Below are positions 5,192 through 28,544 of a stretch of 34,575 nucleotides of DNA, in pieces. The notes under the pieces were generated by a model that made no database searches, was not told the DNA's origin, and saw only the letters and a list, made by a program, of their open reading frames with translations. The stretch is taken from IMG/VR virus record IMGVR_UViG_3300005264_000053, positions 1 to 34,575 of that record; one strand, 5' to 3'. The position numbers were made by a program, and so were the translations under genes. Each line of letters starts with the position of its first letter. The first letter of the stretch is position 1. Source of the stretch: a virus.

Positions 5192-6433
5192 TCACCATCC
5201 CCATTTGTCTTTGTTTACGCCTTCAAGCGCATATCTTAAGGCGTCTATTAAGTGATTATCCTTGTCTACCGGTACCGGTAGAACATTTCCGTTTTTATCC
5301 TCTTTCCATTTATACTTACTGAACTCTAATTTTGTATTCATGCAGTCCTCATGGATAATAATCTCTAAGGACTTAAGGAACTTGATGCCGTGTTCTATTG
5401 ATCCTTTTCCCTTCTTAGCTGGAATGGCATTTACTCCTAGAGTCTTGAAATCCGCTATAGATTTAGGCTCCGCACTATCACACGTAACGATCTCTCTGCC
5501 TACCTTCTGCTTAACTTGATAGCCTGATAATTCGTTACTCGCCTCATAGAGATATAGCTCATCGAATATATACAGTCTACGCCTCATCTTATCATAGTGG
5601 CAGCGTATAAAAGCAAATGGATCCGTAGAATATCCCCAGTCTACGCCATTATAGATATTATCGAATGTAGGTATTAAGTCGGTTAAGTCTGCTGTTTTCC
5701 AGTTTTTAAATATTAACGCTCCTAATATACCCCAGTTACCTAGTGTGTATACTTCGTAATAGTATTTGTCTGTCTCTTCTTCTAACGCCCTTATATCCTC
5801 TTCGCTTAAGTATTTATTATCCTTATACGTTGTTTTAAGAATAGATAAGGACCTATCTCGCCATTCTCGATATTTGTCTCCATCGTTCCAACTTTGGAAG
5901 AATTCAGCATATAGCCAGTGGTCTTTTAAAACTGGATTGAATATAAATGTCATTCTTTTAGGAACCGGTGATATACCTCTTAAACGTTTATCTAATTGTT
6001 TGTAAGCTGTATAGGTTACTTGCGTAGCCTCTTCTAAGATTATATCTGTTATAACTCCTTTTATAGGTGTTATAGATTTTATGTTTTCTGGATCGTCTAG
6101 TCCTAGGAATAATATCTGGCAGTCATTGAGAGTACAAGTTATAGTTAAGTCAGTCTTGTTGACGTGGAAATAGTCTTGTACTTTAAAAGCTTTTATTGCC
6201 TTAGTCACTTCGTTGAATGATGATTTACGTATAGACCTTTGTGTATTTCTAACAATAAGATAGTTACGCTTACCACCTAACACGTCCAGTATTGTTCTTT
6301 GGCCTAAAACTGCGAATGATTTACCACTTGACGATCCACCATAATATATCTGATATCTTTTATCGTTATTCATCGCATACTTGTAGTATACGTCGTTGAA
6401 TATCCTAGGATCAATATTGATATTAATCTTCAT
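5192..6433 (-). CDS. terL: Terminase large subunit (PBSX-type)
   Basis: A 413-aa packaging motor that combines an ATPase with a nuclease. Walker A is GGSSSGKS at residues 32-39, Walker B is DIILEEA at 130-136, and the coupling segment FIFNPV is at 163-168. The nuclease half has GVDWGYSTDP (Asp265), TCDSAEPKSI (Asp319) and DNHLIDALRYAL (Asp397), the expected three-acid set. Length and motif spacing fit the Terminase_3/PBSX family, which usually works by headful packaging in related phages. The gene overlaps the end of the small subunit by 11 bases and precedes the portal. All catalytic residues appear intact. Confidence 0.95.
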   Translation of the reverse strand: MKININIDPRIFNDVYYKYAMNNDKRYQIYYGGSSSGKSFAVLGQRTILDVLGGKRNYLIVRNTQRSIRKSSFNEVTKAIKAFKVQDYFHVNKTDLTITCTLNDCQILFLGLDDPENIKSITPIKGVITDIILEEATQVTYTAYKQLDKRLRGISPVPKRMTFIFNPVLKDHWLYAEFFQSWNDGDKYREWRDRSLSILKTTYKDNKYLSEEDIRALEEETDKYYYEVYTLGNWGILGALIFKNWKTADLTDLIPTFDNIYNGVDWGYSTDPFAFIRCHYDKMRRRLYIFDELYLYEASNELSGYQVKQKVGREIVTCDSAEPKSIADFKTLGVNAIPAKKGKGSIEHGIKFLKSLEIIIHEDCMNTKLEFSKYKWKEDKNGNVLPVPVDKDNHLIDALRYALEGVNKDKWGW

Positions 6434-7061
6434 TATCGCTCACCGGTCCTATATTGATATTAACTTCATGTGTAATGTCGCCCGTAACTTCAACCTGTTC
6501 TGTAAACATTTTGAGGTATTTCCCTACTTGGTCTATAGTCTTATTTTTATTATATCTCTTAACGTATACGCCATGTTGGTTATGGCCTACCTCCGATATA
6601 GACCTAAGAGCTGCCTTGGTCATATCCTTAGTATCTTTGATTAATACACGCTGCACCTTTTCAGTCAATATCGATCCATCCTCTTTGAATAGATAATTAC
6701 CCTTCTTATCCTTGATAGGTACATCCTCTGTAATGATTTCTGCCACATCGGATATGTCGGTTTCTAGTAAGTCCTTCATCTGCCTTAAAACGTCAGTAAC
6801 TTCAAGGATAACCTCATCCGATACCTTATCTCTTAGACGCTGCTTAAGTTCATTGAGTCTTTTCCTTACTCGTGGTCTAGCTAATACCCTTGATGCCTTC
6901 TTAGCCATTGCTATATCTGAATAATTCTCAGATGCATATAGAGAGGCAGCGAATGCCTCTCGTTGGTTTTTACCTTTTAGAACTTCTTGTATTAAACTCT
7001 CTTCGTATTTATTACAACCGCCGTGGTCTCTCTGGAAGGCGGTTAGTCTTTCTGATGCCAT
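6423..7061 (-). CDS. terS: Terminase small subunit
   Basis: A 212-aa protein from ATG 7061. An in-frame GTG at 7079 lies upstream, but the ATG has GAGGGTGATAAT directly before it. The N-terminal part (FQRDHGGCNKYEESLIQEVLKGKNQREAF) followed by AKKASRVLARPRVRKRLNELKQRL matches small terminases of the Terminase_2 type: a DNA-binding helix-turn-helix, then a coiled oligomerisation helix. The C-terminal part (KRVLIKDTKDMTKAALRSISEVGHNQHGVYVKRYN) is the usual tail of this family. It overlaps terL and is the first gene after the late promoter, with a leader of only about 20 bases. Confidence 0.88.
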   Translation of the reverse strand: MASERLTAFQRDHGGCNKYEESLIQEVLKGKNQREAFAASLYASENYSDIAMAKKASRVLARPRVRKRLNELKQRLRDKVSDEVILEVTDVLRQMKDLLETDISDVAEIITEDVPIKDKKGNYLFKEDGSILTEKVQRVLIKDTKDMTKAALRSISEVGHNQHGVYVKRYNKNKTIDQVGKYLKMFTEQVEVTGDITHEVNINIGPVSDNED

Positions 7062-7931: not shown

Positions 7932-9359
7932 TTACCTCCTCAAGTATTCGTCTATTCTGGCCTTAACTGCATCCATTAAAGCCTCTTGTTTTGTAGCTTT
8001 ACCCTCTAGAACGTCCATAATTCGCTCGTCTACTGTGTTTTTAGTTATTAAATGATGAATTATAACACTTTCATTCTTTTGTCCTTGGCGGTATAATCTC
8101 GCATTTGCTTGCTGGTATAACTCTAGAGACCATATTAGACTAAACCACACTATAACATTACCGCCCGATTGGAGATTAAGCCCATGGCCCGCTGATGCTG
8201 GATGGACTAATAGGATATCAATATTACCATTATTCCAATCTTTAATGTCATTTTCTGACATTAATTCTCTAGAATTGGGAAATTTTTTTCTCAGTCTTTC
8301 AAGGTCATGTTTAAACCAATAGAATACAAGTATAGGCTTATCAACGTTTGTGTCGATTATTTCGCTTAACGCCTCAAGTTTAGATACGTGTATCTCTTCC
8401 CAGTTCGTACTTGACTCATCTGTATAAATTGCACCTTGTGTAAGTTGATGGAGTTTCATTGATAAACTAGATGCTGATGCAGCGTCTATCACTTCTCCGT
8501 CAAGTTCTAAGACAAAATCTCTCTCTAAATCTCTATACTTTTTACGATCTTTGTCTGATAATTCTACAGTTATTTTGTTGATAACCTTCTCTGGCATATC
8601 CAACCAATCCTCCGACTTCATACTGATACATATATCATCTATGGCACTATATATCGCATTTTCTGCCCCTGTACGAGGTTTATAATTGGTCTCTATTAAT
8701 TTACCGCCTGGTGTTCTAATCATGTCTGAGGCCTCAAAATAACGGTTTCTATAACCTGTATACGTAGATCCTAGGCGTTCTCCTCTGTCTAAAATATATA
8801 ATTGGCTCCATAAATCTAGTAAGCCATTAGGTGCTGGTGTACCTGTCAGCCCCACAACTCTCTTAAACAGTGGTGTAGCTTTCTTTAACATCTTAAACCT
8901 TTTACTCGATGAGTTTTTAAAGCTTGATAACTCATCAATCACCACTAGATCGAACGGCCAATCCTTAATAAACTTAAAACCTGTCTTTTTTTCCCTATTC
9001 GTATATTTGCCGTATTGCTCAATGAGCCATACAACGTTTTCTCTATTCACTATATAGATATCTGCATCAACCTCTAAGGCTTTGAGTCTCTTCTTTGCTG
9101 GACCTAATACCTTAGATATAGTTAAATGCTTAAGATGGTCCCATTTCTCTATCTCATCCGACCAAGTAACCTCAGCTACCTTTTTAGGCGCTATAACTAG
9201 CACCTTATTAATCTCAAAGTAATCATACTTGAGGTCGTTAATAGCTGTTAGTGTGGATACTGTTTTACCTAGCCCCATATCCAGGAATAAGCCGACCGGT
9301 GTATTTTCTTTAATTGCATCTATAGCTCTCTTTTGGTATACATGTGCTTTAAATTCCAT
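7932..9359 (-). CDS. SNF2-type DEAD/DEAH helicase
   Basis: A 475-aa superfamily 2 ATPase that probably translocates on DNA during phage replication or recombination. Walker A is DMGLGKT (27-33), the DEAH-box equivalent is VIDELSSFK (140-148), and motif III is GLTGTPAPNG near 171. The C-terminal RecA-like domain carries the LLVHPASAGHGLNLQSGGNVIVWF and ARLYRQGQK motifs (V and VI). Lengths of 450-480 aa are standard for the phage SNF2 proteins found beside VRR-NUC genes. It begins inside the 3' end of the VRR-NUC gene (40-base overlap) with GGAGTTAGAGAC before the ATG, so the two are probably translationally coupled. Confidence 0.93.
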   Translation of the reverse strand: MEFKAHVYQKRAIDAIKENTPVGLFLDMGLGKTVSTLTAINDLKYDYFEINKVLVIAPKKVAEVTWSDEIEKWDHLKHLTISKVLGPAKKRLKALEVDADIYIVNRENVVWLIEQYGKYTNREKKTGFKFIKDWPFDLVVIDELSSFKNSSSKRFKMLKKATPLFKRVVGLTGTPAPNGLLDLWSQLYILDRGERLGSTYTGYRNRYFEASDMIRTPGGKLIETNYKPRTGAENAIYSAIDDICISMKSEDWLDMPEKVINKITVELSDKDRKKYRDLERDFVLELDGEVIDAASASSLSMKLHQLTQGAIYTDESSTNWEEIHVSKLEALSEIIDTNVDKPILVFYWFKHDLERLRKKFPNSRELMSENDIKDWNNGNIDILLVHPASAGHGLNLQSGGNVIVWFSLIWSLELYQQANARLYRQGQKNESVIIHHLITKNTVDERIMDVLEGKATKQEALMDAVKARIDEYLRR

Positions 9360-9634
9360 GTCTCTAACTCCTCTATTAAGATATCAATCTTTTCTTCGCT
9401 GTCTATAACATAACATATCGCGCCTAAATCTGTAAACTGATTTAACCTTAAAATTTGCTGTTTCCTAAGTTTACCTTTTGGTGCTTTCATTTCAACAAAG
9501 ACAACCTTATTAACTGGAAATAAAATCACCCGATCCGGTACTCCTCGAAGTCCAGGCGATACGAATTTCATGCAAAGGCCACCCTTACTTTTTACTTTCC
9601 TAACTAATTGCTTTTCTAGATCCGACTCTCTCAT
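9320..9634 (-). CDS. VRR-NUC domain nuclease
   Basis: A 104-aa single-domain nuclease. The catalytic pattern is clear: GLRGVPDRVILFP (Asp34), then VVFVEMKAPKGKLRKQQ with the E48-x-K50 pair, the PD-(D/E)XK signature of VRR-NUC proteins, followed by LNQFTDLGAICYVID. This family is thought to cleave branched DNA. In phages it stands alone next to a SNF2 helicase, as here. The start ATG follows GAGGTGAAAAA and lies just downstream of the repeat-rich origin candidate. Confidence 0.92.
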   Translation of the reverse strand: MRESDLEKQLVRKVKSKGGLCMKFVSPGLRGVPDRVILFPVNKVVFVEMKAPKGKLRKQQILRLNQFTDLGAICYVIDSEEKIDILIEELETWNLKHMYTKREL

Positions 9635-9710
9635 TTTTTCACCTCAGCAATTCTATCATTTCTGGTCATTTTTTTTACGGGGAACAAGGGGACCAAGGGA
9701 CCAAGAATTC

Positions 9711-9793
9711 CTTAGGTAGTATATAACACTACAGCACTATACACTATACCACTACCCCTATACTACTATATACTATATACTGTACTATATATA
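9711..9793. repeat. AT-rich ACTATA repeat block (possible unwinding element)
   Basis: About 83 bases made almost only of CACTATA, ACTATA and TACTATA repeats between two inverted iteron arrays. It has no coding potential on either strand. Low melting stability and its position suggest a DNA-unwinding element. Confidence 0.6.
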
Positions 9794-9849
9794 ATTCTTG
9801 TTCCCCTTGTTCCCCGTAGTCTGCATGTGTTGATATTACTTAACTCTAC

Positions 9850-9881
9850 GGGGAACAAGTTCGATAAAATTCTTGTTCCCC
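9850..9881. repeat. 10-bp inverted repeat within iteron array
   Basis: GGGGAACAAG (9850-9859) and CTTGTTCCCC (9872-9881) are perfect inverted copies with a 12-base AT-rich loop. In single-stranded form this would make a stable hairpin, which could serve as a primase or initiator site. Confidence 0.65.
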
Positions 9882-9974
9882 TTGTTCCCCTTGTTCCCCG
9901 TTTATTGCTATTATTGTATTTATTGTAAATATATAACAAAATAAGTTGAGTAATTCTTGTTCCCCTTGTTCCCT

Positions 9975-10045
9975 TAAAATTTTTGGCTTGGTCCTTTCAC
10001 CGATAAGCTTGTTCCCTTGGTCCCCTAAAATTTTTGGCTTGGTCC
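9975..10045. repeat. 20-bp direct repeat pair
   Basis: A 20-base element (AAAATTTTTGGCTTGG core) occurs at 9975-9994 and 10026-10045, 51 bases apart. Each is joined to GTTCCC/GGTCCC iterons. The second copy ends 3 bases before the VapE-like gene stop. It may be a second class of origin site. Confidence 0.7.
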
Positions 10046-10047
10046 CC

Positions 10048-12483
10048 CTATTTTTTAGGTCTAATATAGTATCTTTGCTTTCCATATTCCTTAATTTTTT
10101 TACGTTTTCCCGATTTTTCCCAACCGATCCACCTTAAAATCTCGGCCATTTCGTATTGATCTTTTCTATTATAATTATCAATTCTGCCGCCAAAACACTC
10201 TACAAAAAGCTCTATCCCTGAGATTGTGTCTCTTCCAATTAAGGGAATATTTGTCAGCTCATTATCCCCAAAGCCGTTATAATAATTTACCTTATCGGCT
10301 ATTGATTTGCTATCCCAATCCTCTGGTATTTTAATATCTAAGAACTCAGCAGCTACTCCAGTTTTACTGTTAACAGCTGAGAATTGTTCTTGTAGTTCTC
10401 TAGATATTTTCTCGCTGTTACCACTTAAATATAGATCCTCACCTAAGCTATACACTACATCAGCCTCAGCCCATAACTGATCCACTACCTCTCTAGTTAG
10501 ATGTGACCATAACTTTTCTGTGTTCTCTACTCTTACTGGCCAAAATCTCCTCGCCCCCGTAGAGTCGATAAGGAAATCATCTCTATTAGTAGTGCCGCCG
10601 AATATACATTGGCGTGCATATGTCTCTGTCCTTCTGCCGTAAGAAGGTCTGTAGGTATCCTCTTGCTTTGATAAGAATACTTTGACGTGTTCTACTTCAG
10701 CCTTCTTCATAGCAGATAATTCTCCTAGCTCTATGATCCATTTACCCGCAAGCTGCTCCATACTTTCCTTAGTATTATCAAACTTGCCCATAGAGTCGCT
10801 AAACCACTTAGGGCTAACAGATATTCTACTAAAGAATTGTGATTTACCCATACCTTGCTCACCGACTAGGATAAGCATGTTATCGAATTTGATACCAGGC
10901 TCTCTAATTCTAGCAACACCTGCCGCCATCCACTTCCTGCTGATCGCCCTTGTATACTCTGAGTCGTCAGCACCTAAGTAGTCTATTAGCATAGTATCTA
11001 GTCTAGCCACTCCATCCCACTCTAGACTATCTAAATAATCTCTCACTGGATGGAACTTGTTTTCATTCATAACGATAGTAACTGCATCACTTATAGCCTC
11101 TCTCTTCTTTAGGCCGTAGATTGTTTCCAAGTAATGCCTTAAATTAGAGTCGTCTGAGTCGCTCCAAACTTCAACTTTCTTGTTTTTAGGCCTCCAAGCT
11201 ATAGGACCTTTAATATTGAACGACCTTCCGAACTCATCGTAACCGATAGAGCCATTTATGTTACTATCATTTCTTAGTATCTTAACAGCGTTATTGATTG
11301 TCTGCTGGATGTTTCCTTTGGTGTCGAATTTAAGTTTAGATCTCCAGGTGTCGTCCTCATCCTCTTTTATCTCTTCTACTTCTAAGCCGAACTCTTCTTC
11401 TAACTCTTCCTTTTTAACTGATGCTAGTTCAATTCTCACCTTATCGTCTCTAAGACAAAACTCACTCATCGCCGTATAACTCGGCAATTTGTGAACTGGT
11501 GTATCCTCTCTTACATCTAGATCCTTCTTTCCGAACTTGTGGATCCTGACAAGGTCAAACGCATTACATAACACACCGCCCGCCGGATCTGTCCCGTGAT
11601 GAGAGTATGAGAATATATCATCGTACACCACGACTCCGGCTGATGCGGTACCCGCTATATATGTGTATCTGCCTTCTGTGTCGCATATCTCGTATACATC
11701 AGATAAGAACTCAGATATAGCCTCAGATATCGTGTAGGACCTACAGAAAGCACCAACGACTCCCGGCTTTTCTAATGGATCGCCTTGCTTTTCTGCTGTA
11801 CTCTCGTAGAGCTTATGAGCTCTTGAGCTTTCCGGCCATGTACTCATATCCCGCCAATCTGGATGAGCGTTGAGTATCACGTCTGGATCTAAGAACGGTC
11901 CGTCAATGTGTCTGAATATATACTCACCATCTGCTGGTGTACTCGGCCAGTACATGAGCCTCTCAGGCTGATAGGTAGTATCATCGAAGAAATCTATACC
12001 TATTTCCGCAGCTACGTATCTAGCGATTGCCTTGTACTCATCACCTGTTACTTGACGACTCAACGGTATAATAAGCCTAACTTTTGGACTCTCTGCCGTG
12101 TGACTATGAGTTGTATACATAGCAATGCTATTTGCATATAACATCTCTACTACGTCCCATATATCCTCTTCCAAGAAATCCGCATCAAGCGTGATAAGTG
12201 AACGCCAAGCAACTTGACCTTTCTTTCTCTTACCCTCTTTTAGCACACCGCCAACAAAACCACCAACGTCCTTAATATTAGAACGTTGGTCTCTTGTCAT
12301 GTGTTTGTATTCTGTAACCGTCTCTCTTGTACGTGTTGTAATGCTAAGCTTATCTAATAATTCCGACCATAAAAGCTCTTTGTTTTTCCACTTCTTAGCC
12401 CAGCGGTGCGATCCTACCGCTACTCTGATAAGCCCGTCGTTTTTAACTTCTAACATCTTCTCTTGTTGTATCTGCATTTCCAT
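10048..12483 (-). CDS. VapE-like primase-helicase
   Basis: About 811 aa, combining two activities for starting replication. The N-terminal half resembles an archaeo-eukaryotic type primase: SLITLDADFLEED (near residue 100) supplies an LDxD-like metal site and HSHTAESPKVRLIIPLSR (near 130) is the usual following motif. The C-terminal half is the VirE (PF05272) helicase: DYLDSLEWDGVARLDTMLIDY, Walker A GEQGMGKS (near 541-548), Walker B WIIELGEL, and the STGARRFWPV motif. The start is uncertain: ATG 12483 and ATG 12477 both follow AGAGGTGG, and GTG 12489 is in frame. The gene abuts the iteron region, supporting a role as origin-loading primase-helicase. Confidence 0.92.
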   Translation of the reverse strand: MEMQIQQEKMLEVKNDGLIRVAVGSHRWAKKWKNKELLWSELLDKLSITTRTRETVTEYKHMTRDQRSNIKDVGGFVGGVLKEGKRKKGQVAWRSLITLDADFLEEDIWDVVEMLYANSIAMYTTHSHTAESPKVRLIIPLSRQVTGDEYKAIARYVAAEIGIDFFDDTTYQPERLMYWPSTPADGEYIFRHIDGPFLDPDVILNAHPDWRDMSTWPESSRAHKLYESTAEKQGDPLEKPGVVGAFCRSYTISEAISEFLSDVYEICDTEGRYTYIAGTASAGVVVYDDIFSYSHHGTDPAGGVLCNAFDLVRIHKFGKKDLDVREDTPVHKLPSYTAMSEFCLRDDKVRIELASVKKEELEEEFGLEVEEIKEDEDDTWRSKLKFDTKGNIQQTINNAVKILRNDSNINGSIGYDEFGRSFNIKGPIAWRPKNKKVEVWSDSDDSNLRHYLETIYGLKKREAISDAVTIVMNENKFHPVRDYLDSLEWDGVARLDTMLIDYLGADDSEYTRAISRKWMAAGVARIREPGIKFDNMLILVGEQGMGKSQFFSRISVSPKWFSDSMGKFDNTKESMEQLAGKWIIELGELSAMKKAEVEHVKVFLSKQEDTYRPSYGRRTETYARQCIFGGTTNRDDFLIDSTGARRFWPVRVENTEKLWSHLTREVVDQLWAEADVVYSLGEDLYLSGNSEKISRELQEQFSAVNSKTGVAAEFLDIKIPEDWDSKSIADKVNYYNGFGDNELTNIPLIGRDTISGIELFVECFGGRIDNYNRKDQYEMAEILRWIGWEKSGKRKKIKEYGKQRYYIRPKK

Positions 12484-12530
12484 AACCACCTCTTCTGGAT
12501 ATAGTTTTTAAAGTGCCTACTATAATCATA

Positions 12531-17078: not shown

Positions 17079-19064
17079 TTAATCTTTTTTGTAAAACGTT
17101 GTATGATACCCATCTGCATTAAGCGGCAGGTCCTTTGCCCACTCTGGCCTAATGCTCATAGTATCCTCTATATCTTTTAATGTAGAGCCCGGATCATCGC
17201 TATGATGATCGATAATAACCTCGTCGTGTACATGCATTACTATTTCATAACCTTTAGCGTCCAATCTCATCATGCTTTCCGCTAAACAATCCCTCGATAT
17301 TGCCTGTATTATATTCTCTACCAGTTTAGGTCCGTACGTATCAATTCTAGTCCACTTGTGTTTTACTTGATCCATTCCCATAAAAGTTAACTTAGCTCTA
17401 TCGTATCTCTTATCAAGCTCTATACGTGGCTCTATATAAGCTATACGACGTCTGTTAGGTAGCGTTATGAATAATATATCCTCTTCTACCTTAAACTCTA
17501 GACCATAAGCCCCCTGTACTATTCCAGGGCTTCTAACCGCATTAATGGCAGCACTACCGACCGACCACCAAAGGTCAACTATGTTAGGATTTGCTGCCCT
17601 CCAAGCGTTAACTAGAGGCTTGAGGTCGTCCTTTTCTAAACCCATCTTTAACGCCCCCATCGCCTCTAACGCACCAACAGATCCACCGTATCCTAGAGCA
17701 AGTTCTGCGATTTTACCTTTCGCCCTAAGGGCGTAGTTCTCTTTTCCTTTTGCTATCGTCTCTATCGGTACTGAGAACATCTGAGACGCTGATGCCTCAT
17801 AGATTTTCCCATGTGTATTGAATACATCCATTCTCCAACTCTCTCCAGCTAGCCACGACAGGACTCTCGCCTCTATGGCTGAGAAGTCAGCTACATATAG
17901 CCTGTTACCCTCTGACGCTATGAACGCTGTTCTAATTAACTGGCTCATAACATCAGATGTATTGCCCCATAAAAGCTCTAGAGCATCGTTAGGACCATAC
18001 TTAAGCATTTCTCTAGCAAGGTCTAAGTCATGCATAGAGTTTCTAGGTAGATTTTGCACTTGTACCAATCTACCCGCCCAACGCATCGTCCTTGCACCTC
18101 CGAATTGGATGAGTCCGCTAGCTCTATCATTCTTTAAGATGCACCTATCCATTGCAGCATATTTGCCTATGCTGGTTTTAGATCCTTCTATTCTTAACCT
18201 TAATACCTTCTTTAATAATTCATCCTCTGAGTTTTTTAGTAGGTCTGCTACAACAGATTTATTTAAGCTGCCGCCCTCAAACTCTGTATTCCCCTCAAGC
18301 CATTTCTTAAGTTGAGCTGTAGAGTTAGGATTGCTTAGACCTGTTATTTCTTTTAACTCTCTATCTATTCTGGTCTTAGATTCCTCGTCAATCTCTAAGG
18401 CTCTTTCTATCATCTGCCTATCAAGCTTAACGCCTCTATCATTGATACGCTGATCTAGATGCCATAAATCCCATTCAGATTTAGGCAGCGGAAATCTTTT
18501 CAGTTTTCTTTTTATTTCTCTCTCAACTACTACATCCTGCTTACAGTAGTTTTTGAACAGCTCCCACCTCTCCTCTGCATGGTGTGGCAGGTTTCTAGTT
18601 CTCCCACCATTAGCCTTAGTAGGCCTACAAGGTTTACAGAAATACTGTATAAGTGCTTTGCCTGCCTTGTCTTTCTGCTTATCGACTGGCAGCCTAAGTG
18701 CCTCAGCAGCTTTCCCAAGCCCTAAGGGTAGTCCTAACTCCGCACCATATATCATAGTGCATTCCCAATGCCTCGGATCCTTATCAGTATTCAGGTATTT
18801 ATTTAACGCTATTCTTTCAAAGTTAGCGTTATAGGCTGATTTAGTTATGCTAGGATTGTTTATGTCGTCTAAAAGCATCATTAAATCAAAATCATTAGAA
18901 GGATCATCTATAGTAGTTAAGTCTATTATAGATACTTCGTCATCATCATAAGCATAGGCGATCATAAGTATTTCAAAACTCTCATGTTCTACATACTTAT
19001 ACACGCCTACCTTAGTTAAGTCTAAGTCGCAGTACGTTTCTATATCAATACTGAGTTCCATCAT
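17079..19064 (-). CDS. DNA polymerase, family A
   Basis: A 661-aa replicative polymerase with 3'-5' exonuclease. The exonuclease motifs are LSIDIET (Asp7, Glu9), AYNANFER (near 80) and YCKQDVVVE (Asp177). The polymerase motifs are A, LYVADFSAIEARVL (Asp393); B, RAKGKIAELALGYGG (about 447-461); and C, MHVHDEVI (His-Asp-Glu near 613). All appear intact. Length matches the phage PolA lineage paired with DUF2815 and DUF2800 genes in Bacillota phages. The ATG follows GGGGAGGTGAA and overlaps the MazG-like stop. A strong terminator follows. Confidence 0.95.
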   Translation of the reverse strand: MMELSIDIETYCDLDLTKVGVYKYVEHESFEILMIAYAYDDDEVSIIDLTTIDDPSNDFDLMMLLDDINNPSITKSAYNANFERIALNKYLNTDKDPRHWECTMIYGAELGLPLGLGKAAEALRLPVDKQKDKAGKALIQYFCKPCRPTKANGGRTRNLPHHAEERWELFKNYCKQDVVVEREIKRKLKRFPLPKSEWDLWHLDQRINDRGVKLDRQMIERALEIDEESKTRIDRELKEITGLSNPNSTAQLKKWLEGNTEFEGGSLNKSVVADLLKNSEDELLKKVLRLRIEGSKTSIGKYAAMDRCILKNDRASGLIQFGGARTMRWAGRLVQVQNLPRNSMHDLDLAREMLKYGPNDALELLWGNTSDVMSQLIRTAFIASEGNRLYVADFSAIEARVLSWLAGESWRMDVFNTHGKIYEASASQMFSVPIETIAKGKENYALRAKGKIAELALGYGGSVGALEAMGALKMGLEKDDLKPLVNAWRAANPNIVDLWWSVGSAAINAVRSPGIVQGAYGLEFKVEEDILFITLPNRRRIAYIEPRIELDKRYDRAKLTFMGMDQVKHKWTRIDTYGPKLVENIIQAISRDCLAESMMRLDAKGYEIVMHVHDEVIIDHHSDDPGSTLKDIEDTMSIRPEWAKDLPLNADGYHTTFYKKD

Positions 19065-19475: not shown

Positions 19476-20039
19476 TTATCCTAATAAATCATCCGTAGAT
19501 CCAAAATCTGAGAAATCTTCTTCCGGCGTAGATCCTCCAGCTAATGGCTCTCCATCCTCTAACTTTTGTAAGTTATTGAGTCCTGCGGCGATCCCCTTGT
19601 TACCACTCACGTTAAAAGCATAGAAGTTGATTGACGCTCTACCATAGCATCCCGAATAGAACTCCGACTGATCCAGTATAGGCTGAACGTTAGCGTCAAC
19701 TATCCCCGGCTTTCTCTTACTTGTTGCATTAATAAAGTAACATCCTTCATATGCCGGATCGTCCGGTCTCTCTACGTCTCCATCTCTTAATGGTGTTTTT
19801 AATGTAGCCATATTAACCGGCTTCCCGTTAGTTGATAGAGTACTCTTTCCAGCCTCTACCGCAGCTTTGATTGCTGCTTTGATCGCATTTACTGTTTTAG
19901 TATCCGACTTTGGAATAACTATAGATACCGAATATTTCTTTTCCTGTCCTTCAAAACCGTTAGGCTCCCAAACGTGAGCATAACTGAATCTAACCTTACC
20001 TGTTACTATCTTTGTACTTACTATCTTTGTACTTGCCAT
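19476..20039 (-). CDS. DUF2815 single-stranded DNA-binding protein
   Basis: A 187-aa protein of the DUF2815 family, an OB-fold-type ssDNA-binding protein that replaces SSB in many Bacillota phages. Typical parts are GKVRFSYAHVWEPNGFEGQEKKYSVSIVIPKSD near the N-terminus, LRDGDVERPDDPAYEGCYFINATSKRKPGIVD in the middle, and FYSGCYGRASINFYAFNVSGNKGIAAGLNNLQKLEDGEPL. An acidic tail (EEDFSDFGSTDDLLG) resembles the partner-binding tail of SSBs. The ATG follows AAGGAGGAATTTATATT. The downstream terminator fits high expression. Confidence 0.93.
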   Translation of the reverse strand: MASTKIVSTKIVTGKVRFSYAHVWEPNGFEGQEKKYSVSIVIPKSDTKTVNAIKAAIKAAVEAGKSTLSTNGKPVNMATLKTPLRDGDVERPDDPAYEGCYFINATSKRKPGIVDANVQPILDQSEFYSGCYGRASINFYAFNVSGNKGIAAGLNNLQKLEDGEPLAGGSTPEEDFSDFGSTDDLLG

Positions 20040-22364: not shown

Positions 22365-22393
22365 AGTATAATATATCTTTTGATATCTGTCAA
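22365..22393 (-). promoter_or_regulatory. Early promoter
   Basis: On the minus strand: TTGACA (22388-22393), a 17-base spacer and TATACT (22365-22370). The inverted repeat GATAT-CTGTCA-ATATC (22382-22397) covers the -35. The T tract of the late terminator lies just upstream. Confidence 0.78.
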
Positions 22394-22416
22394 TATCTTT
22401 TTCAAAAAAAATAAAA

Positions 22417-22448
22417 AAAATAGATCCGGTTAGAGTCAGATCTATTTT
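22417..22448 (-). terminator. Late-operon terminator
   Basis: Arms AAAATAGATC (22417-22426) and GATCTATTTT (22439-22448) are a perfect 10-bp inverted repeat with a 12-base loop. On the minus strand the stem runs into TTTTTTTTATTTTTTTT. It ends transcription from the lysis cassette and leads directly into the early promoter. Confidence 0.87.
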
Positions 22449-22613
22449 AAGGTGTCTCGTTGGTGAGTCTTACCCCTGCAGCTATGAGACCTGCAGGTAT
22501 CTACTCCTTTCACGCCAAAAGAGGAAGAGTGTCGCTGCAGTCTCTTCCTCTTCCGTTATCTATATGAAAGGAGGTTACATCTATAGTATACTCCTGTTTT
22601 CACGTTTTGTAAA
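22449..22613 (-). other. Structured non-coding stretch before the late terminator
   Basis: No credible gene. It holds three CTGCAG sites within 65 bases (22476, 22491, 22535) and two strong hairpins: CCTGCAG/CTGCAGG (22475-22497) and AAGAGGAAGAG/CTCTTCCTCTT (22519-22552, 12-base loop, followed by TTTT on the minus strand). GTCTC (22454-22458) and GAGAC (22486-22490) could pair as an alternative. Motif CTCC...TTCACG occurs twice (22504-22514, 22591-22604). Candidates are a 3' UTR RNA, an anti-decay structure, or a packaging site. Confidence 0.55.
22519..22552 (-). terminator. Possible first terminator hairpin of the lysis operon
   Basis: A perfect 11-bp stem (22519-22529 with 22542-22552) and 12-base loop; on the minus strand only TTTT follows the stem. 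It is a weak terminator at best, and may instead protect the mRNA 3' end. Confidence 0.45.
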
Positions 22614-22712
22614 CTATAATTTTAAAAATAACACGACTAAACCTACAACAATTATAAGGTCTAATGCGGCGGCCGCTAATATTATTATCTCTGACGTGTC
22701 TAATTCTTTCAT
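22614..22712 (-). CDS. Transmembrane micropeptide, 32 aa, end of lysis cassette
   Basis: A 32-aa peptide: a short polar start (MKELDTSE), then one hydrophobic helix (IIILAAAALDLIIVVGLVVLFLKL). The ATG follows AAGGTGGTAGTT, two bases beyond the M15 peptidase stop, so it is likely coupled. Position and a single membrane helix suggest a pinholin, antiholin or spanin-type helper. There is no lipobox or coiled coil, so a spanin is unlikely. Unusual for this AT-rich genome, it holds a GCGGCCGC site. Confidence 0.6.
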   Translation of the reverse strand: MKELDTSEIIILAAAALDLIIVVGLVVLFLKL

Positions 22713-22714
22713 AA

Positions 22715-24454: not shown

Positions 24455-24574
24455 TTACATAGACATTATCTTATCTTTTTCTTCTTCTGTTATCCAACCT
24501 TTAGCAACTGCGTTGGATAACTTTTCTTCTGTAAGTTTCCCGTCTTGCCATAATCTTAATAGTGTTTCAAACAT
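24455..24574 (-). CDS. XkdX-like small protein
   Basis: A 39-aa protein (MFETLLRLWQDGKLTEEKLSNAVAKGWITEEEKDKIMSM). The pattern of an N-terminal MFE-x-LLR-LW, then LTEE-L--AV-KGWIT-EE--KI is that of the XkdX family, found between tail-fibre and lysis genes in PBSX-like phages. Function unknown. The ATG is preceded by AAGGGGTGATTAT. Confidence 0.82.
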   Translation of the reverse strand: MFETLLRLWQDGKLTEEKLSNAVAKGWITEEEKDKIMSM

Positions 24575-24585
24575 ATAATCACCCC

Positions 24586-25032
24586 TTATAAGCTACTTAA
24601 AACTAATGCGTCAATAGTTTCTTGTAGTATCTCTAGTTGCGTTTTTGGTCTTGGAAGTGGTGTATTATCGTGATTATCAATAACATTTTGAATTTGTGCT
24701 TTCAAGTTATTAATATCGAATTCTTCTTCCTTAACAACTTCAATCTCTTTTTCAACTTCTTCTGTTATTTCTTCGCCATTTTCATTTAGTGAAGTAATAG
24801 TTTCAGTTACTGTTTCAGTAGATTTAGTTAATTTAGCTACTGATACTGAAGTAGAAATAACTTCTCCATTATCATCTACTTCTTGAGTTTCGATTTCTTT
24901 TAAATCTTGAAAATGTAGTTTAAATTCTGTTTCATCATAACTTAAAATAAAATTTTCATTTAACGTACTTTTCAATTCAATTTTTATTTTTTTAGAATTT
25001 ACATTTTCATTGTTATATTTTAAAATCAACAT
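24586..25032 (-). CDS. Hypothetical tail-associated protein, 148 aa
   Basis: A 148-aa protein after the receptor-binding gene. A beta-rich N-terminal half (KLHFQDLKEIETQEVDD) leads to an acidic glutamate/threonine repeat (TETVTETITSLNENGEEITEEVEKEIEVV) and a helical end (PKTQLEILQETIDALVLSSL) that resembles the tail-fibre/XkdW-type end modules of Bacillota phages. Its AT-rich codon use matches the receptor-binding gene and differs from the rest of the genome. Confidence 0.62.
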   Translation of the reverse strand: MLILKYNNENVNSKKIKIELKSTLNENFILSYDETEFKLHFQDLKEIETQEVDDNGEVISTSVSVAKLTKSTETVTETITSLNENGEEITEEVEKEIEVVKEEEFDINNLKAQIQNVIDNHDNTPLPRPKTQLEILQETIDALVLSSL

Positions 25033-25035
25033 AAT

Positions 25036-26907
25036 TTAATCACCAACCTTTGTTATTTTTATTTTAGTATAAGCACCTATACAATCCAATTGTACACCAC
25101 TATTTTGTCGCATTTGTATTTTAAATGTATCACCTTTTTTAAACGTTATAGTTGGATTTATTTCTCCAATAGTATTACTTGTTGTTGGTGATAATATTAT
25201 AAATTTTTCAAATGTAGCGTTTTTATCAATAACATAGTATCTAGAACCTGTTTCGTTTGTATCAAAAGCAAAATCACAATCGAATTTAAATTCACCACTT
25301 GTTAGCATTTTAAAAGTTATTCCATCTTCCGTATAAACACCAATATTATTATCTATTACATCAAATAATATATTTTCATAAATGTCGTTGTCTAATGGTT
25401 GATTTCCACTTTTACCAGCTGTTAAAATAACATTGGTGTTTACTATTTTGCTATATTCTGCCACATCTGAATGGTGTGCGTGGGATAAGTTGGTGATACT
25501 TGCAGAATAAATCGTTCTAATGTTTGAATAAGCCAATACACCAATATTTAAATTATATTTTTCTAAATTTGTATTTGTTAATTCAATTTCTACTAAGGTT
25601 GATAAATCGTTGTTCTTGTATAGTTTTAAATTCCATTTTTCACCATTTCTCGAAACCGTATAATTTAAAATGTCATTAGCGTTAATTGGAAAACTTATAT
25701 CTTTCACTTCTTTTACAACGCTGTTGTTGACAACTCTACCTCTAATTAAATTACTATATATATAATATTCCACTCTGGTAGATGTTCCACTTACTTCCGA
25801 TACAAAAGCTAAGTATCTATCTTCTGCTGAAATATTCGTGCTAGTTATTAAATTACATTCAAAATTATCAAAATAATTATTGTTTGACAATGAATCCACA
25901 TCATATATGCTACCAGTTAATTCCATTAACTTAATCTGTCCGTTTTCTTTAATCACATACCACTCGCCACTATTAATACTAAAATCAGCTACCCCGTTCT
26001 TCTGCATAGGATTAGGATAGTCATATACTGGGTCTTTTTTGCAAAAAAACAAATCACCAAAATTTACAGTAATTAAATCGTCAATATTATTAGTTGTAAT
26101 ATCAAGTCTTATCTTAGTAACGTCATTTTTATTAAAATTTGCAGATTGACTAGTAAATTCAAAATCAATTTTTACATAATTCCAACCCGTAACATAATTT
26201 ATATTTGCCCATTCTGATGTACTTATATGGTAATATTCACTATTACTATCAAAAAATACAATTTTAACAGAAGTAAGATTAGTTGTATCGGATATATATA
26301 TTGGGATAATTAAATAATCATCAGAATTTACAATTGTATTATTAATAAATTTTTCTATATCTAAAGTTGAATTTAATTCTAAATAACCATAACAAACGTT
26401 ACTTGTTACACTTGTCTTTTCTAATTTAAACGAATAATTTCTTAATTTATAAGTGGAATAATCTCTTGTAATAGTCGCTCCTGTCGCTGAAATAACAAAA
26501 TCATCTTTATTGTCGAACAAATCTAACGTATTTCCATAATATGCTTCCATGTCGGTATAGAACGTATTTTCAATAGTCTTTGTCCTATTTTGCCATGCGT
26601 CCTGTTCATCTTTAAAATTATTCCATACTGTGCCTTCTGTATCTACCATAGCTTGTGATACTCTAGGGTCAACTTCTGTTCCACCGACTACGATACTGTC
26701 TATTTGTCCTTTGAGTTGATTGTTTACTTCTTCTTGATTGGCACCTGATACGTTTGAGTTGTCGTTGATATCTTTTGTACTGTGTCTATTAGAAGAACCG
26801 TTTATATGTCCTTCTAATTCTTGATTGATGCTATCATCGTTTGAATAAATTCTGTCATACGTATCATTAATATCAGTATTTCCAGGTATTGTTTTTATAT
26901 CTGCCAT
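25036..26907 (-). CDS. Receptor-binding / tail tip protein, C1q-like C-terminus
   Basis: A 623-aa protein in the position of the tail fibre or baseplate receptor-binding protein. An N-terminal helical, Asn/Asp-rich stretch (residues about 1-110, coiled-coil-like) probably attaches to the tail. The middle (about 120-500) is beta-rich, with a region resembling a concanavalin-like lectin (AEDRYLAFVSEVSGTSTRVEYYIYSNLIRGRVVN...LKLYKNNDLSTLVEIELTNT). The C-terminus (KSGNQPLDNDIYENILFDVIDNN...FKKGDTFKIQMRQNSGVQLDCIGAYTKIKITKVGD) has the layout of a C1q/TNF-like jelly roll, common at phage receptor-binding tips. The ATG follows AAAGGAGTTAAATT. Confidence 0.78.
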   Translation of the reverse strand: MADIKTIPGNTDINDTYDRIYSNDDSINQELEGHINGSSNRHSTKDINDNSNVSGANQEEVNNQLKGQIDSIVVGGTEVDPRVSQAMVDTEGTVWNNFKDEQDAWQNRTKTIENTFYTDMEAYYGNTLDLFDNKDDFVISATGATITRDYSTYKLRNYSFKLEKTSVTSNVCYGYLELNSTLDIEKFINNTIVNSDDYLIIPIYISDTTNLTSVKIVFFDSNSEYYHISTSEWANINYVTGWNYVKIDFEFTSQSANFNKNDVTKIRLDITTNNIDDLITVNFGDLFFCKKDPVYDYPNPMQKNGVADFSINSGEWYVIKENGQIKLMELTGSIYDVDSLSNNNYFDNFECNLITSTNISAEDRYLAFVSEVSGTSTRVEYYIYSNLIRGRVVNNSVVKEVKDISFPINANDILNYTVSRNGEKWNLKLYKNNDLSTLVEIELTNTNLEKYNLNIGVLAYSNIRTIYSASITNLSHAHHSDVAEYSKIVNTNVILTAGKSGNQPLDNDIYENILFDVIDNNIGVYTEDGITFKMLTSGEFKFDCDFAFDTNETGSRYYVIDKNATFEKFIILSPTTSNTIGEINPTITFKKGDTFKIQMRQNSGVQLDCIGAYTKIKITKVGD

Positions 26908-26922
26908 AATTTAACTCCTTTC

Positions 26923-27205
26923 TTAATAAACTTGACTTCCAAATGCGTCATATCCATGTCCTGCGACATGAGTTATTAAAATTCTATTAGCTGTATCAAA
27001 CCATTTTATTCGTGCGTCACTTTCGAAAAAAACATCGCCATATAATCTAGTGATACTGCCATTTGCACCTAAATGCAATTCTGCACCGTTTAATGGGTTA
27101 AGTGAATAACCTACACTTCCGTTATTGAAAAACTGCAATGTTTCTGTTCCTGCATTATAGAATTTCATCATTGATTTATTCAAATTTGACGGGTCTGTTA
27201 TCGCT
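26923..27205 (-). pseudogene. Detached C-terminus of the Tal protein (out of frame after duplication)
   Basis: An open frame of about 93 codons (AITDPSNLNKSMMKFYNAGTE...VAGHGYDAFGSQVY) that in this sequence has only TTG 27183 as a late start and no ribosome binding site. Collapsing the 56-bp repeat at 27206-27317 to one copy makes it continue in frame from the 425-aa Tal gene, giving 517 aa. It is therefore the C-terminal end of that gene. Beta-rich composition with AELHLGANGSITRLYGD fits a fibre tip. Confidence 0.75.
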
Positions 27206-27317
27206 ACTCCGTCCTTTTGATTGCTATTGTTGTAAGTAGTAAGTTCATTTCCACTTATTTCACTCCGTCCTTTTGATTGCTATTGTTGTAAGTAGTAAGT
27301 TCATTTCCACTTATTTC
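27206..27317. repeat. 56-bp perfect tandem duplication in the Tal gene
   Basis: Two identical 56-base copies lie back to back: 27206-27261 and 27262-27317 (the match extends one base further). 56 is not a multiple of three, so the second copy shifts the Tal reading frame and brings in TAA at 27255-27257. A single copy leaves the frame open. Such a repeat can be gained or lost by replication slippage or by misassembly. Confidence 0.95.
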
Positions 27318-28532
27318 AATACGTTCGCCAGTAGAGTTAGTTTTGAAAATTCCACCAATGATAGTTGAACCGTTGACTGTTCCACCATTAATCGTACTAC
27401 CATTAATAACACCTATTATAGTAGCATTATTAGCAATCATATTACCGTTATTATCAACAGTAAATGTGCCATTTCCAATATCAATAGTTCCACCTACAAA
27501 ATCAGTTGCATTTAATTCACCGACAAATACATACTTTCCGTTGATTGCGTCAAAATAAATTGCATCGACGTAATTTCCAGTTCCATCTCCAACTTGCATT
27601 CTAAATTCATCAGCGTTAAAAATACTTCTAGCTTTTAAATCAGTACGTTCAATTCCAATACCTACCGCATTATTGATTTTAACACCATAGATTATATCAG
27701 TCTGTTTGATAGCTGTTTCTTGCAAAAATGCCATATCATCGGTTATGTTATCAAAGTTGTTACCTGTAACTATATTAATGTTAACGTCTTTTATTATATC
27801 CTTCTCTATCTCATAAACGCTTTGAGTCGTGTCTATTCCTAGGGTACTATCCTTTAAATGAATTGTATCGCCTATGTCTACCTTCTCTAGATCGGAAAAG
27901 TTAGATTTCAATTCCTCCGACGCGAATATATTAATAACGTTAAATTTATAAGTTAGATTATCAACACCTCTTTTGTCCTGTATTTTATGGATTTCTTTTA
28001 AATTCTTTCTTATTTCTACCCTATAACCGTTATCTTGCCCGATACTGTTTAGCATACTTATTTCAAAACCGTTATACTCTAGCTCAAGTCCTAGTGTATT
28101 AGCTAATGAGTATATAATGTTAAGCTTATTAGCGTTGCGGTTAACCGCGAATACTATAGATGAAGTTGACTCTACAGTCCCGACACTGAACTCCGTACCT
28201 GCTAATATATCAGCCAAAATCTCGGCAGGCGTTCCTGTTTTAGCATAGTTATTTATCTTTTCTGATATAAGTCTATATGTTACGTGTTCAGTTCTTACAT
28301 CATATTCTATAGCATCGGTATGCCCTATATCTATATAATTTATATCAAACAGATACCCGTCTACGTCAATCATGTTAGACGTTTGGATATATTCAGTCTT
28401 TAGATTCTCCTCGTAGCAGCTAAAATCGAATGTAAATAAGCCGTTAACTCTCCGCTTAAGAGAGTTGGATATCATGTTATTTAAAACAGCTAGTGTATTT
28501 AAATTACTGTCTACTATTTTAGCATAAGCCAT
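27255..28532 (-). CDS. Tail-associated (Tal / prophage tail endopeptidase) protein, N-terminal 425 aa
   Basis: A 425-aa product, cut short by the 56-bp duplication; the intact form would be 517 aa. The first ~330 residues (AKIVDSNLNTLAVLNNMISNSLKRRVNGLFTFDF, DGYLFDINYIDIGHT, VTYRLISEKINNYA, LEKVDIGDTIHLKDSTL) match the Tal/PF06605 hub protein that closes the tail tip and connects to fibres. Then comes a beta-helix-like repeat region (GGTIDIGNGTFTVDNNGN, TINGGTVNGSTIIGGIF). The open frame has GTG 28541, but ATG 28532 follows GGGGGTGGGGTAT. It lies 12 bases after the Dit gene. Confidence 0.82.
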   Translation of the reverse strand: MAYAKIVDSNLNTLAVLNNMISNSLKRRVNGLFTFDFSCYEENLKTEYIQTSNMIDVDGYLFDINYIDIGHTDAIEYDVRTEHVTYRLISEKINNYAKTGTPAEILADILAGTEFSVGTVESTSSIVFAVNRNANKLNIIYSLANTLGLELEYNGFEISMLNSIGQDNGYRVEIRKNLKEIHKIQDKRGVDNLTYKFNVINIFASEELKSNFSDLEKVDIGDTIHLKDSTLGIDTTQSVYEIEKDIIKDVNINIVTGNNFDNITDDMAFLQETAIKQTDIIYGVKINNAVGIGIERTDLKARSIFNADEFRMQVGDGTGNYVDAIYFDAINGKYVFVGELNATDFVGGTIDIGNGTFTVDNNGNMIANNATIIGVINGSTINGGTVNGSTIIGGIFKTNSTGERIEISGNELTTYNNSNQKDGVK

Positions 28533-28544
28533 ATACCCCACCCC

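Follow-up and report, generated by a model that had tools for sequence, protein, structure and literature searches.

A putative Rep-ori replication origin of SaPI/PICI type beside vapE in a phage genome

Results

An iteron array between vapE and VRR-NUC

The window, by which we mean the whole analysed stretch of 34,575 nucleotides (IMG/VR record IMGVR_UViG_3300005264_000053), has no terminal repeats and may therefore be incomplete. A phrog_69 exonuclease is encoded upstream of the vapE region together with Pol A and a Gp2.5-like protein, and the terminase genes lie downstream, approximately 2.5-3 kb from the array described here. The features of the locus are as follows (window coordinates).

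7932-9359, minus strand: SNF2-family helicase gene, same module as vapE
9320-9634, minus strand: VRR-NUC nuclease gene, conserved right neighbour of the array
9635-10047, no strand: putative replication origin, the entire vapE-VRR-NUC intergenic region, 413 bp
9676-9705, plus strand: VRR-NUC-side iterons, three copies (GGGGAACAAG, GGGGACCAAG, GGGACCAAG) directed toward the core at a period of 8-9 bp
9706-9796, no strand: AT-rich iteron-free core with ACTATA/TATATA repeats, putative melting site; the iterons on either side lie about 100 bp apart
9797-9815, minus strand: core-proximal tandem iteron pair on the vapE side, two copies of GGGGAACAAG, 9-bp period
9850-9859, plus strand: lone inverted iteron separating two vapE-side clusters ('++-++' pattern also in relatives)
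9872-9899, minus strand: triple tandem iteron, three copies of GGGGAACAAG, 9-bp period
9900-9955, no strand: second, shorter AT-rich spacer
9956-10047, minus strand: vapE-proximal iterons, six copies, three of them the ACC variant (GGGGACCAAG, AGGACCAAG); holds the 20-bp repeat pair
10048-12489, minus strand: vapE, 813-aa primase-helicase, PF05272, phrog_256; helicase half (about 380-813) homologous to SaPI PriRep1
10051-10119, minus strand: VapE 791-813, probable iteron reader, predicted to form the wing, a beta-hairpin, of the C-terminal winged-helix domain (AF2 model and covariation)
10078-10080, minus strand: K804 codon of vapE
17079-19064, minus strand: family A DNA polymerase (Pol A), replication module
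19476-20039, minus strand: Gp2.5-like ssDNA-binding/annealing protein, replication module

The array occupies the vapE-VRR-NUC gap, its first copies lying at the vapE stop codon (10048). GGA[AC]CAAG occurs 15 times in 9676-10047 and once in the remaining 34,162 bases of the window, and 1000 dinucleotide shuffles of the gap gave a mean of 0.04 sites and a maximum of 1. A preliminary description had reported at least 13 9-mers in both orientations in this region, which these counts bear out, along with an ACTATA-repeat core, recovered here as the AT-rich stretch at about 9706-9796, a perfect 16-bp inverted repeat with a spacing of 111 bp (TACGGGGAACAAGGGG at 9676-9691, CCCCTTGTTCCCCGTA at 9803-9818), which extends to 22 bp at 95%, and a 20-bp direct repeat (TAAAATTTTTGGCTTGGTCC) with copies at 9975-9994 and 10026-10045, all of which were found again. 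Its statement that this is the only gene-free stretch above 300 bases is wrong, since 22365-22714 (350 bp) is another. This second stretch contains strong potential hairpins (CCTGCAG...CTGCAGG and AAGAGGAAGAG...CTCTTCCTCTT) and folds better than shuffled sequences on both strands (z of -2.2 and -2.6); Rfam gave no match there or anywhere else in the window.

Several properties of the array were missing from that description. Within clusters the head-to-tail copies mostly follow a period of 8-9 bp, and the three VRR-NUC-side copies all point toward the vapE-side copies across the core. Read in the vapE sense, the pattern is ++++++++-++ / ---, split by a core of about 100 bp, that is, a mostly same-direction run, the AT-rich core and then three oppositely facing copies. 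The word itself comes in two variants, GGGGAACAAG in inner positions (AAC form) and GGGACCAAG mostly in outer ones (ACC variant), which could be weak sites or reflect an ongoing change of the word. Mixed words in one array were also seen in Staphylococcus phage QT1 (AAGGGACG/AAGGCACG). Searching IMG/VR with an exact 19-mer of the window's tandem word returned two single hits only, both coincidental and in GC-rich coding DNA. The GC skew at the array is monotonic and shows no switch, and is uninformative because all window genes lie on one strand.

Elsewhere in the window, an exact 56-bp tandem duplication (27206-27318, 2.0 copies, 100% match) spans the gap after ORF 26923-27183 into ORF 27255-28541, and the GC content falls to 0.26-0.29 at 24501-27000, over the 623-aa ORF 25036-26907, compared with 0.35-0.40 around it. 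This ORF was possibly acquired recently.

Place and plan of the array are conserved in relatives, the word changes

VapE matches were obtained by tblastn in 1047 of 50,697 phage records; genes of this type are usually annotated merely as 'virulence-associated protein E'. For comparison, 221 loci that were distinct (<97% VapE identity) and had VRR-NUC downstream were retained from 410 vapE loci, giving 214 testable gaps, and an array was called significant if one of its 6-mers recurred more often than it did in 99 of 100 shuffles. Words and orientations came from our own de novo procedure, in which words were oriented by their polarity to the core; the sequence frame alone misorients about 40% of them.

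A significant array was present in 191 of the 214 testable gaps (89%), with a mean top count of 7.1 versus 2.65 after shuffling, and an earlier locus set with adjacent coding controls gave 7.2 versus 2.7 (shuffled) and 3.0 (coding). The check put forward in the preliminary description, whether arrays stand beside vapE in related phages, thus came out positive. The plan is not universal among relatives: about 11% of testable gaps carry no significant array and seven relatives have no gap at all. vapE and VRR-NUC abut in Croceibacter phage P2559Y and Bacteroides phage BF486P2, and in such gapless relatives the origin would therefore lie elsewhere in the genome. The P2559Y locus contains an annotation gap of about 720 bp ahead of the polymerase gene (locus positions 243-961). 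In Streptococcus phage Javan513 (locus positions 6380-6780) the tblastn match to VapE is confined to the N-terminal primase half of the phage's own protein (7-345), yet the gap after it holds, in the same place, a weaker repeated word of the GGTAACC type (p=4/100).

Among 20 named phages the order vapE-gap-VRR-NUC-SNF2 is mostly kept, and their words differ, including TGTCAACA, GTATCCAT, CAACCGA, AAGGGACG, TGCAACA, GGGACAAG, ACTGCAACA and others. The iterons that flank the largest iteron-free interval are opposed in 168 of 187 loci (p=5e-31), in 134 of 138 where the core measures 80-130 bp, and in 36 of 36 where the VapEs are less than 60% identical. The spacing of same-strand neighbours peaks at 9 bp and core length at 90-115 bp, the AT fraction is 0.678 in the core versus 0.599 in the rest, and a tandem iteron pair next to the core is the common pattern. 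When words are oriented by polarity, they share the frame TG[TG]NNC[CA][AG] with a score of 526 versus a maximum of 490 in 20 random-orientation controls, with 86 distinct 8-mers among 137 loci. Cores of relatives (e.g., L009, L021, L022, L027) also contain long alternating purine-pyrimidine runs, often TATA and then GCGCGCGTATA, the mean longest run being 15.2 versus 6.7 in shuffled sequence; the longest in the window is 8.

VapE is related to the SaPI initiator

Residues 381-733 of VapE match the SaPI-type initiator 7pds with E=6.4e-74, and an AlphaFold2 model of residues 346-813 (mean pLDDT 91) aligns with the same structure ('PriRep1 with dsDNA') at a TM of 0.77 over about 450 columns, the C-terminal domain included. 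SaPI-like Rep loci from IMG/VR carry the related words TGTCCC, TGTCTT, TGTTCC and TGTCTA in two inward-facing sets directly 3' of rep. This corresponds to the plan described for SaPI/PICI origins, in which inward-facing iteron sets surround an AT-rich core 3' of rep (PMC6092414), the C-terminal domain of Rep reads the iterons (PMC7581432) and the proposed role of the opposed repeats is the loading of two hexamers head-to-head (PMC9894130).

The word covaries with the predicted wing of VapE

Both vapE and VRR-NUC touch the array, and word similarity correlates with VapE identity (0.43), with a partial correlation of -0.15 for VRR-NUC identity. Words are identical in 86% of pairs at 90-97% VapE identity and in 2-4% at 40-50%. 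Within VapE, the word follows the helicase half rather than the primase half, with peaks at 400-450, at 526-546 and in the last 25 residues; the covarying columns at about 400-452 and 538-540 were disregarded as likely clade markers. The signal was weak and poorly localised when 69-96 loci were scanned and became clear once 137 oriented words and pairs matched for identity were used; the table of SaPI-like Reps had indicated the wing before the phage wing was looked at.

In the identity-matched pair contrasts over roughly 500 columns, residue 804 (K in the window, motif YGxQ) ranks first with z=17, where z-scores are inflated and are not probabilities, the sequences being related and not independent; R806 ranks third and R796 eighteenth. 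K797 (z=-0.4), K798 and K800 in the same wing stretch gave no covariation signal. Residue 804 is K or R in 43 of 50 loci with GG.../TGTC words and another residue in 69 of 72 loci with TGT[TAG] words, TGT(T/A/G) words being paired with V/I/L/P/T, and residue class against word class after clustering at <70% gives 22:5 versus 1:22 (p=1.8e-8). Seven separate clusters of VapE combine TGTTGCC with V/I/A/S at 804, and in five the word GTAAAC is mostly accompanied by T. At residue 796, K accompanies TGTTGC (21/22) and R accompanies TGTATC (7/7). Among disjoint nearest pairs, 804 differs in 19 of 21 with different words versus 8 of 28 with the same word and ranks second. The window, with K804 and a GG word, fits the rule.

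The rule was then fixed and applied to 28 held-out whole-genome loci with less than 95% VapE identity to the earlier set. Arrays were present in 26 of the 28 gaps, polarity was opposed in 20 of 21, and residue class equalled word class in all 15 classifiable loci (p=3e-4); one held-out locus (L512) combines the window's word core, GGGAACAAG, with YGKQ. Wing and array are adjacent and can move as one block by recombination, and this linkage inflates the covariation and accounts for part of it. Linkage is not the whole signal, because VRR-NUC is silent and positions within the wing differ strongly (K804 versus K797). The roles given to single wing residues are statistical, not structural. Taken together, the several hundred relatives compared point to the amino acids of VapE that may choose the word and support a C-terminal domain that would set iteron specificity, as in SaPI/PICI Rep-ori.

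These data bear on two other readings of the array. As operators, the repeats would bind a regulator of the downstream VRR-NUC/SNF2/terminase transcription, for which their place upstream of this gene block speaks. Promoters are not in excess, however, the promoter/terminator scan being at chance level (6 promoter-like matches versus 4.4 expected); the word covaries with the C-terminal wing of VapE and not with VRR-NUC, the downstream gene tested; and two inward-facing sets on either side of an AT-rich core of some 100 bp form an origin plan common to SaPI Rep-ori loci, all of which makes an operator array very improbable. Even less probable is a word read by VRR-NUC/SNF2, e.g., as a processing or resolution site, with vapE merely nearby: the order vapE-array-VRR-NUC-SNF2 is indeed conserved, but the correlations given above favour VapE, and modules with VRR-NUC 99-100% identical have completely different words, as described below.

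Wing and array change together in near-identical modules

Three C. difficile prophage modules (L117, L118 and L280) are 99-99.8% identical over most of vapE and 99-100% in VRR-NUC, with identity falling to 69-82% across the final 96 nt of vapE and the adjoining gap. All nine amino-acid differences between L117 and L118 fall within the last 32 residues of VapE. Their iterons (TGTTACCA, TGTCTACA and TGTCAACA) are all changed at the same position (TGT-TAC-CA / TGT-CTA-CA / TGT-CAA-CA), and core and spacers are largely retained. The earlier proposal that the 9-mer is the recognition site of the VapE-like protein gains support from the covariation of word and wing, including these near-identical modules that differ only there.

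Across close phage pairs with different words, some of which represent one event more than once, as duplicate contigs or close variants, 430 of 3470 differences fall in the last 32 residues versus 137 expected; same-word control pairs gave 165 of 2689 versus 108 expected. In SaPI-like Reps the last 45 residues hold 223 of 305 differences versus 29 expected (control, 12 of 139 versus 13). We tentatively propose, at somewhat less than even odds, that phages and satellites share one pool of origin-specificity alleles, in which the wing (last ~25-30 residues) and its matching iteron array form one cassette that is exchanged or diversifies as a whole, with a residue-to-word code at 804 and 796, and splits otherwise identical modules into compatibility groups. 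Conflict between co-resident prophages and satellites perhaps drives this diversification. If the proposal is true, a phage VapE and a satellite Rep that share a code could each work at the other's origin.

Arrays of short repeats also serve as centromeres and packaging sites, and with the terminase genes this close the array might be a partition or pac-type site acting after replication. We consider this quite unlikely, slightly more so than an operator, given that the array stays with vapE in relatives and in SaPI-like elements, that the word tracks the C-terminus of VapE/Rep and that no partition gene was recognised among the scanned neighbours. Non-functional repeat expansion or mobile-repeat debris, to which the tandem arrangement of some copies might point, is the least credible explanation of all: copies on both strands, polarity, spacing and core length are conserved across very divergent relatives, and all copies change in concert with the VapE wing.

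Discussion

The array with its conserved place, polarity, spacing and core, the homology of VapE to SaPI Rep and the covariation of word and wing together point to 9635-10047 as the replication origin of this phage, of the SaPI/PICI Rep-ori type with VapE as initiator, to which we assign a probability of roughly 0.88 from comparative sequence analysis. The preliminary description had likewise proposed a phage origin, a claim strengthened by the arrays in 89% of relatives' gaps, their conserved polarity and the match to the SaPI/PICI plan; its 'usual origin design' of iterons beside an initiator is too general, the type being specifically that of SaPI/PICI.

From this we infer VapE binding, loading of a double hexamer, core melting and origin activity. 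The winged-helix C-terminal domain of VapE's self-loading helicase half would bind the 9-10 bp iterons, and iterons facing each other from both sides would load two hexamers head-to-head onto the AT-rich core. The core would then melt, and synthesis would be started by the primase half of VapE together with Pol A and the ssDNA-binding protein of the phage.

The plan has been called unique to satellites (PMC6092414), and we judge its presence in full phages, as well as the wing-word code in phages and satellites, to be new. Our search of open-licence papers found no phage origin of this type and no description of the origins of VapE-type phages. A noncoding origin beside the primase gene has reportedly been described in Streptococcus thermophilus phage Sfi21. 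VapE-type phages would thereby gain a predicted origin and initiator, the satellite origin plan would extend to full phages in several bacterial phyla, and origin specificity would become a residue-to-base code open to testing. Natural pairs that are 99.8% identical outside wing and array offer a model for how a replicon may change its recognition word without dying. The findings are relevant to how prophages coexist, to conflict between phages and satellites and to designing compatible replicons.

Comparison with known systems

Like the SaPI/PICI Rep-ori systems (SaPIbov1, SaPI1, E. coli PICIs), the window has its putative origin directly 3' of its initiator gene, which encodes a self-loading AAA+ helicase with a helicase half homologous to PriRep1 (7pds). 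It differs in that the VapE helicase is fused to an N-terminal primase half, in having about 15 iterons with a new word in two variants, and in carrying terminase genes together with a Pol A of its own and further genes for phage replication. A PICI is a helper-induced satellite without virion genes of its own, and the terminase subunits and full phage-type replication module therefore make this a PICI-like origin but not a PICI.

Two further origin classes were considered and rejected. Iteron plasmids of the Rep_3/RepA type use a Rep_3/RepA_N initiator without a helicase, and the initiator next to this array is a PF05272 VapE; in lambda-type origins the iterons lie inside the initiator gene O, and here the array is outside vapE. 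Satellite P4 has a primase-helicase initiator, alpha, of a different architecture, with ori and crr as separate sites that are both needed in cis, and its iterons presumably resemble the GTGAACA words found in this analysis.

SCCmec Cch2 (PMC7581432), related in function, is likewise a self-loading helicase whose gene is followed directly by repeats that its C-terminal domain binds, but belongs to another helicase family (D5_N/Primase_Cterm) and has three 5-nt AAGTG iterons in an integrative cassette. The RepA/ori of the Vibrio cholerae PLE (PMC8263062) is similar as a modular pair of DNA-binding domain and iterons that is swapped between otherwise similar elements, and is unlike the window in its RepA_N initiator without helicase, its semi-palindromic iterons of about 30 bp and its N-terminal reader domain. 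The SV40 T-antigen origin, although it belongs to a eukaryotic virus, is bound by an N-terminal origin-binding domain and has no words in common with the window, shares an SF3-type helicase, opposed repeats and two head-to-head hexamers, a parallel already drawn for SaPI (PMC9894130).
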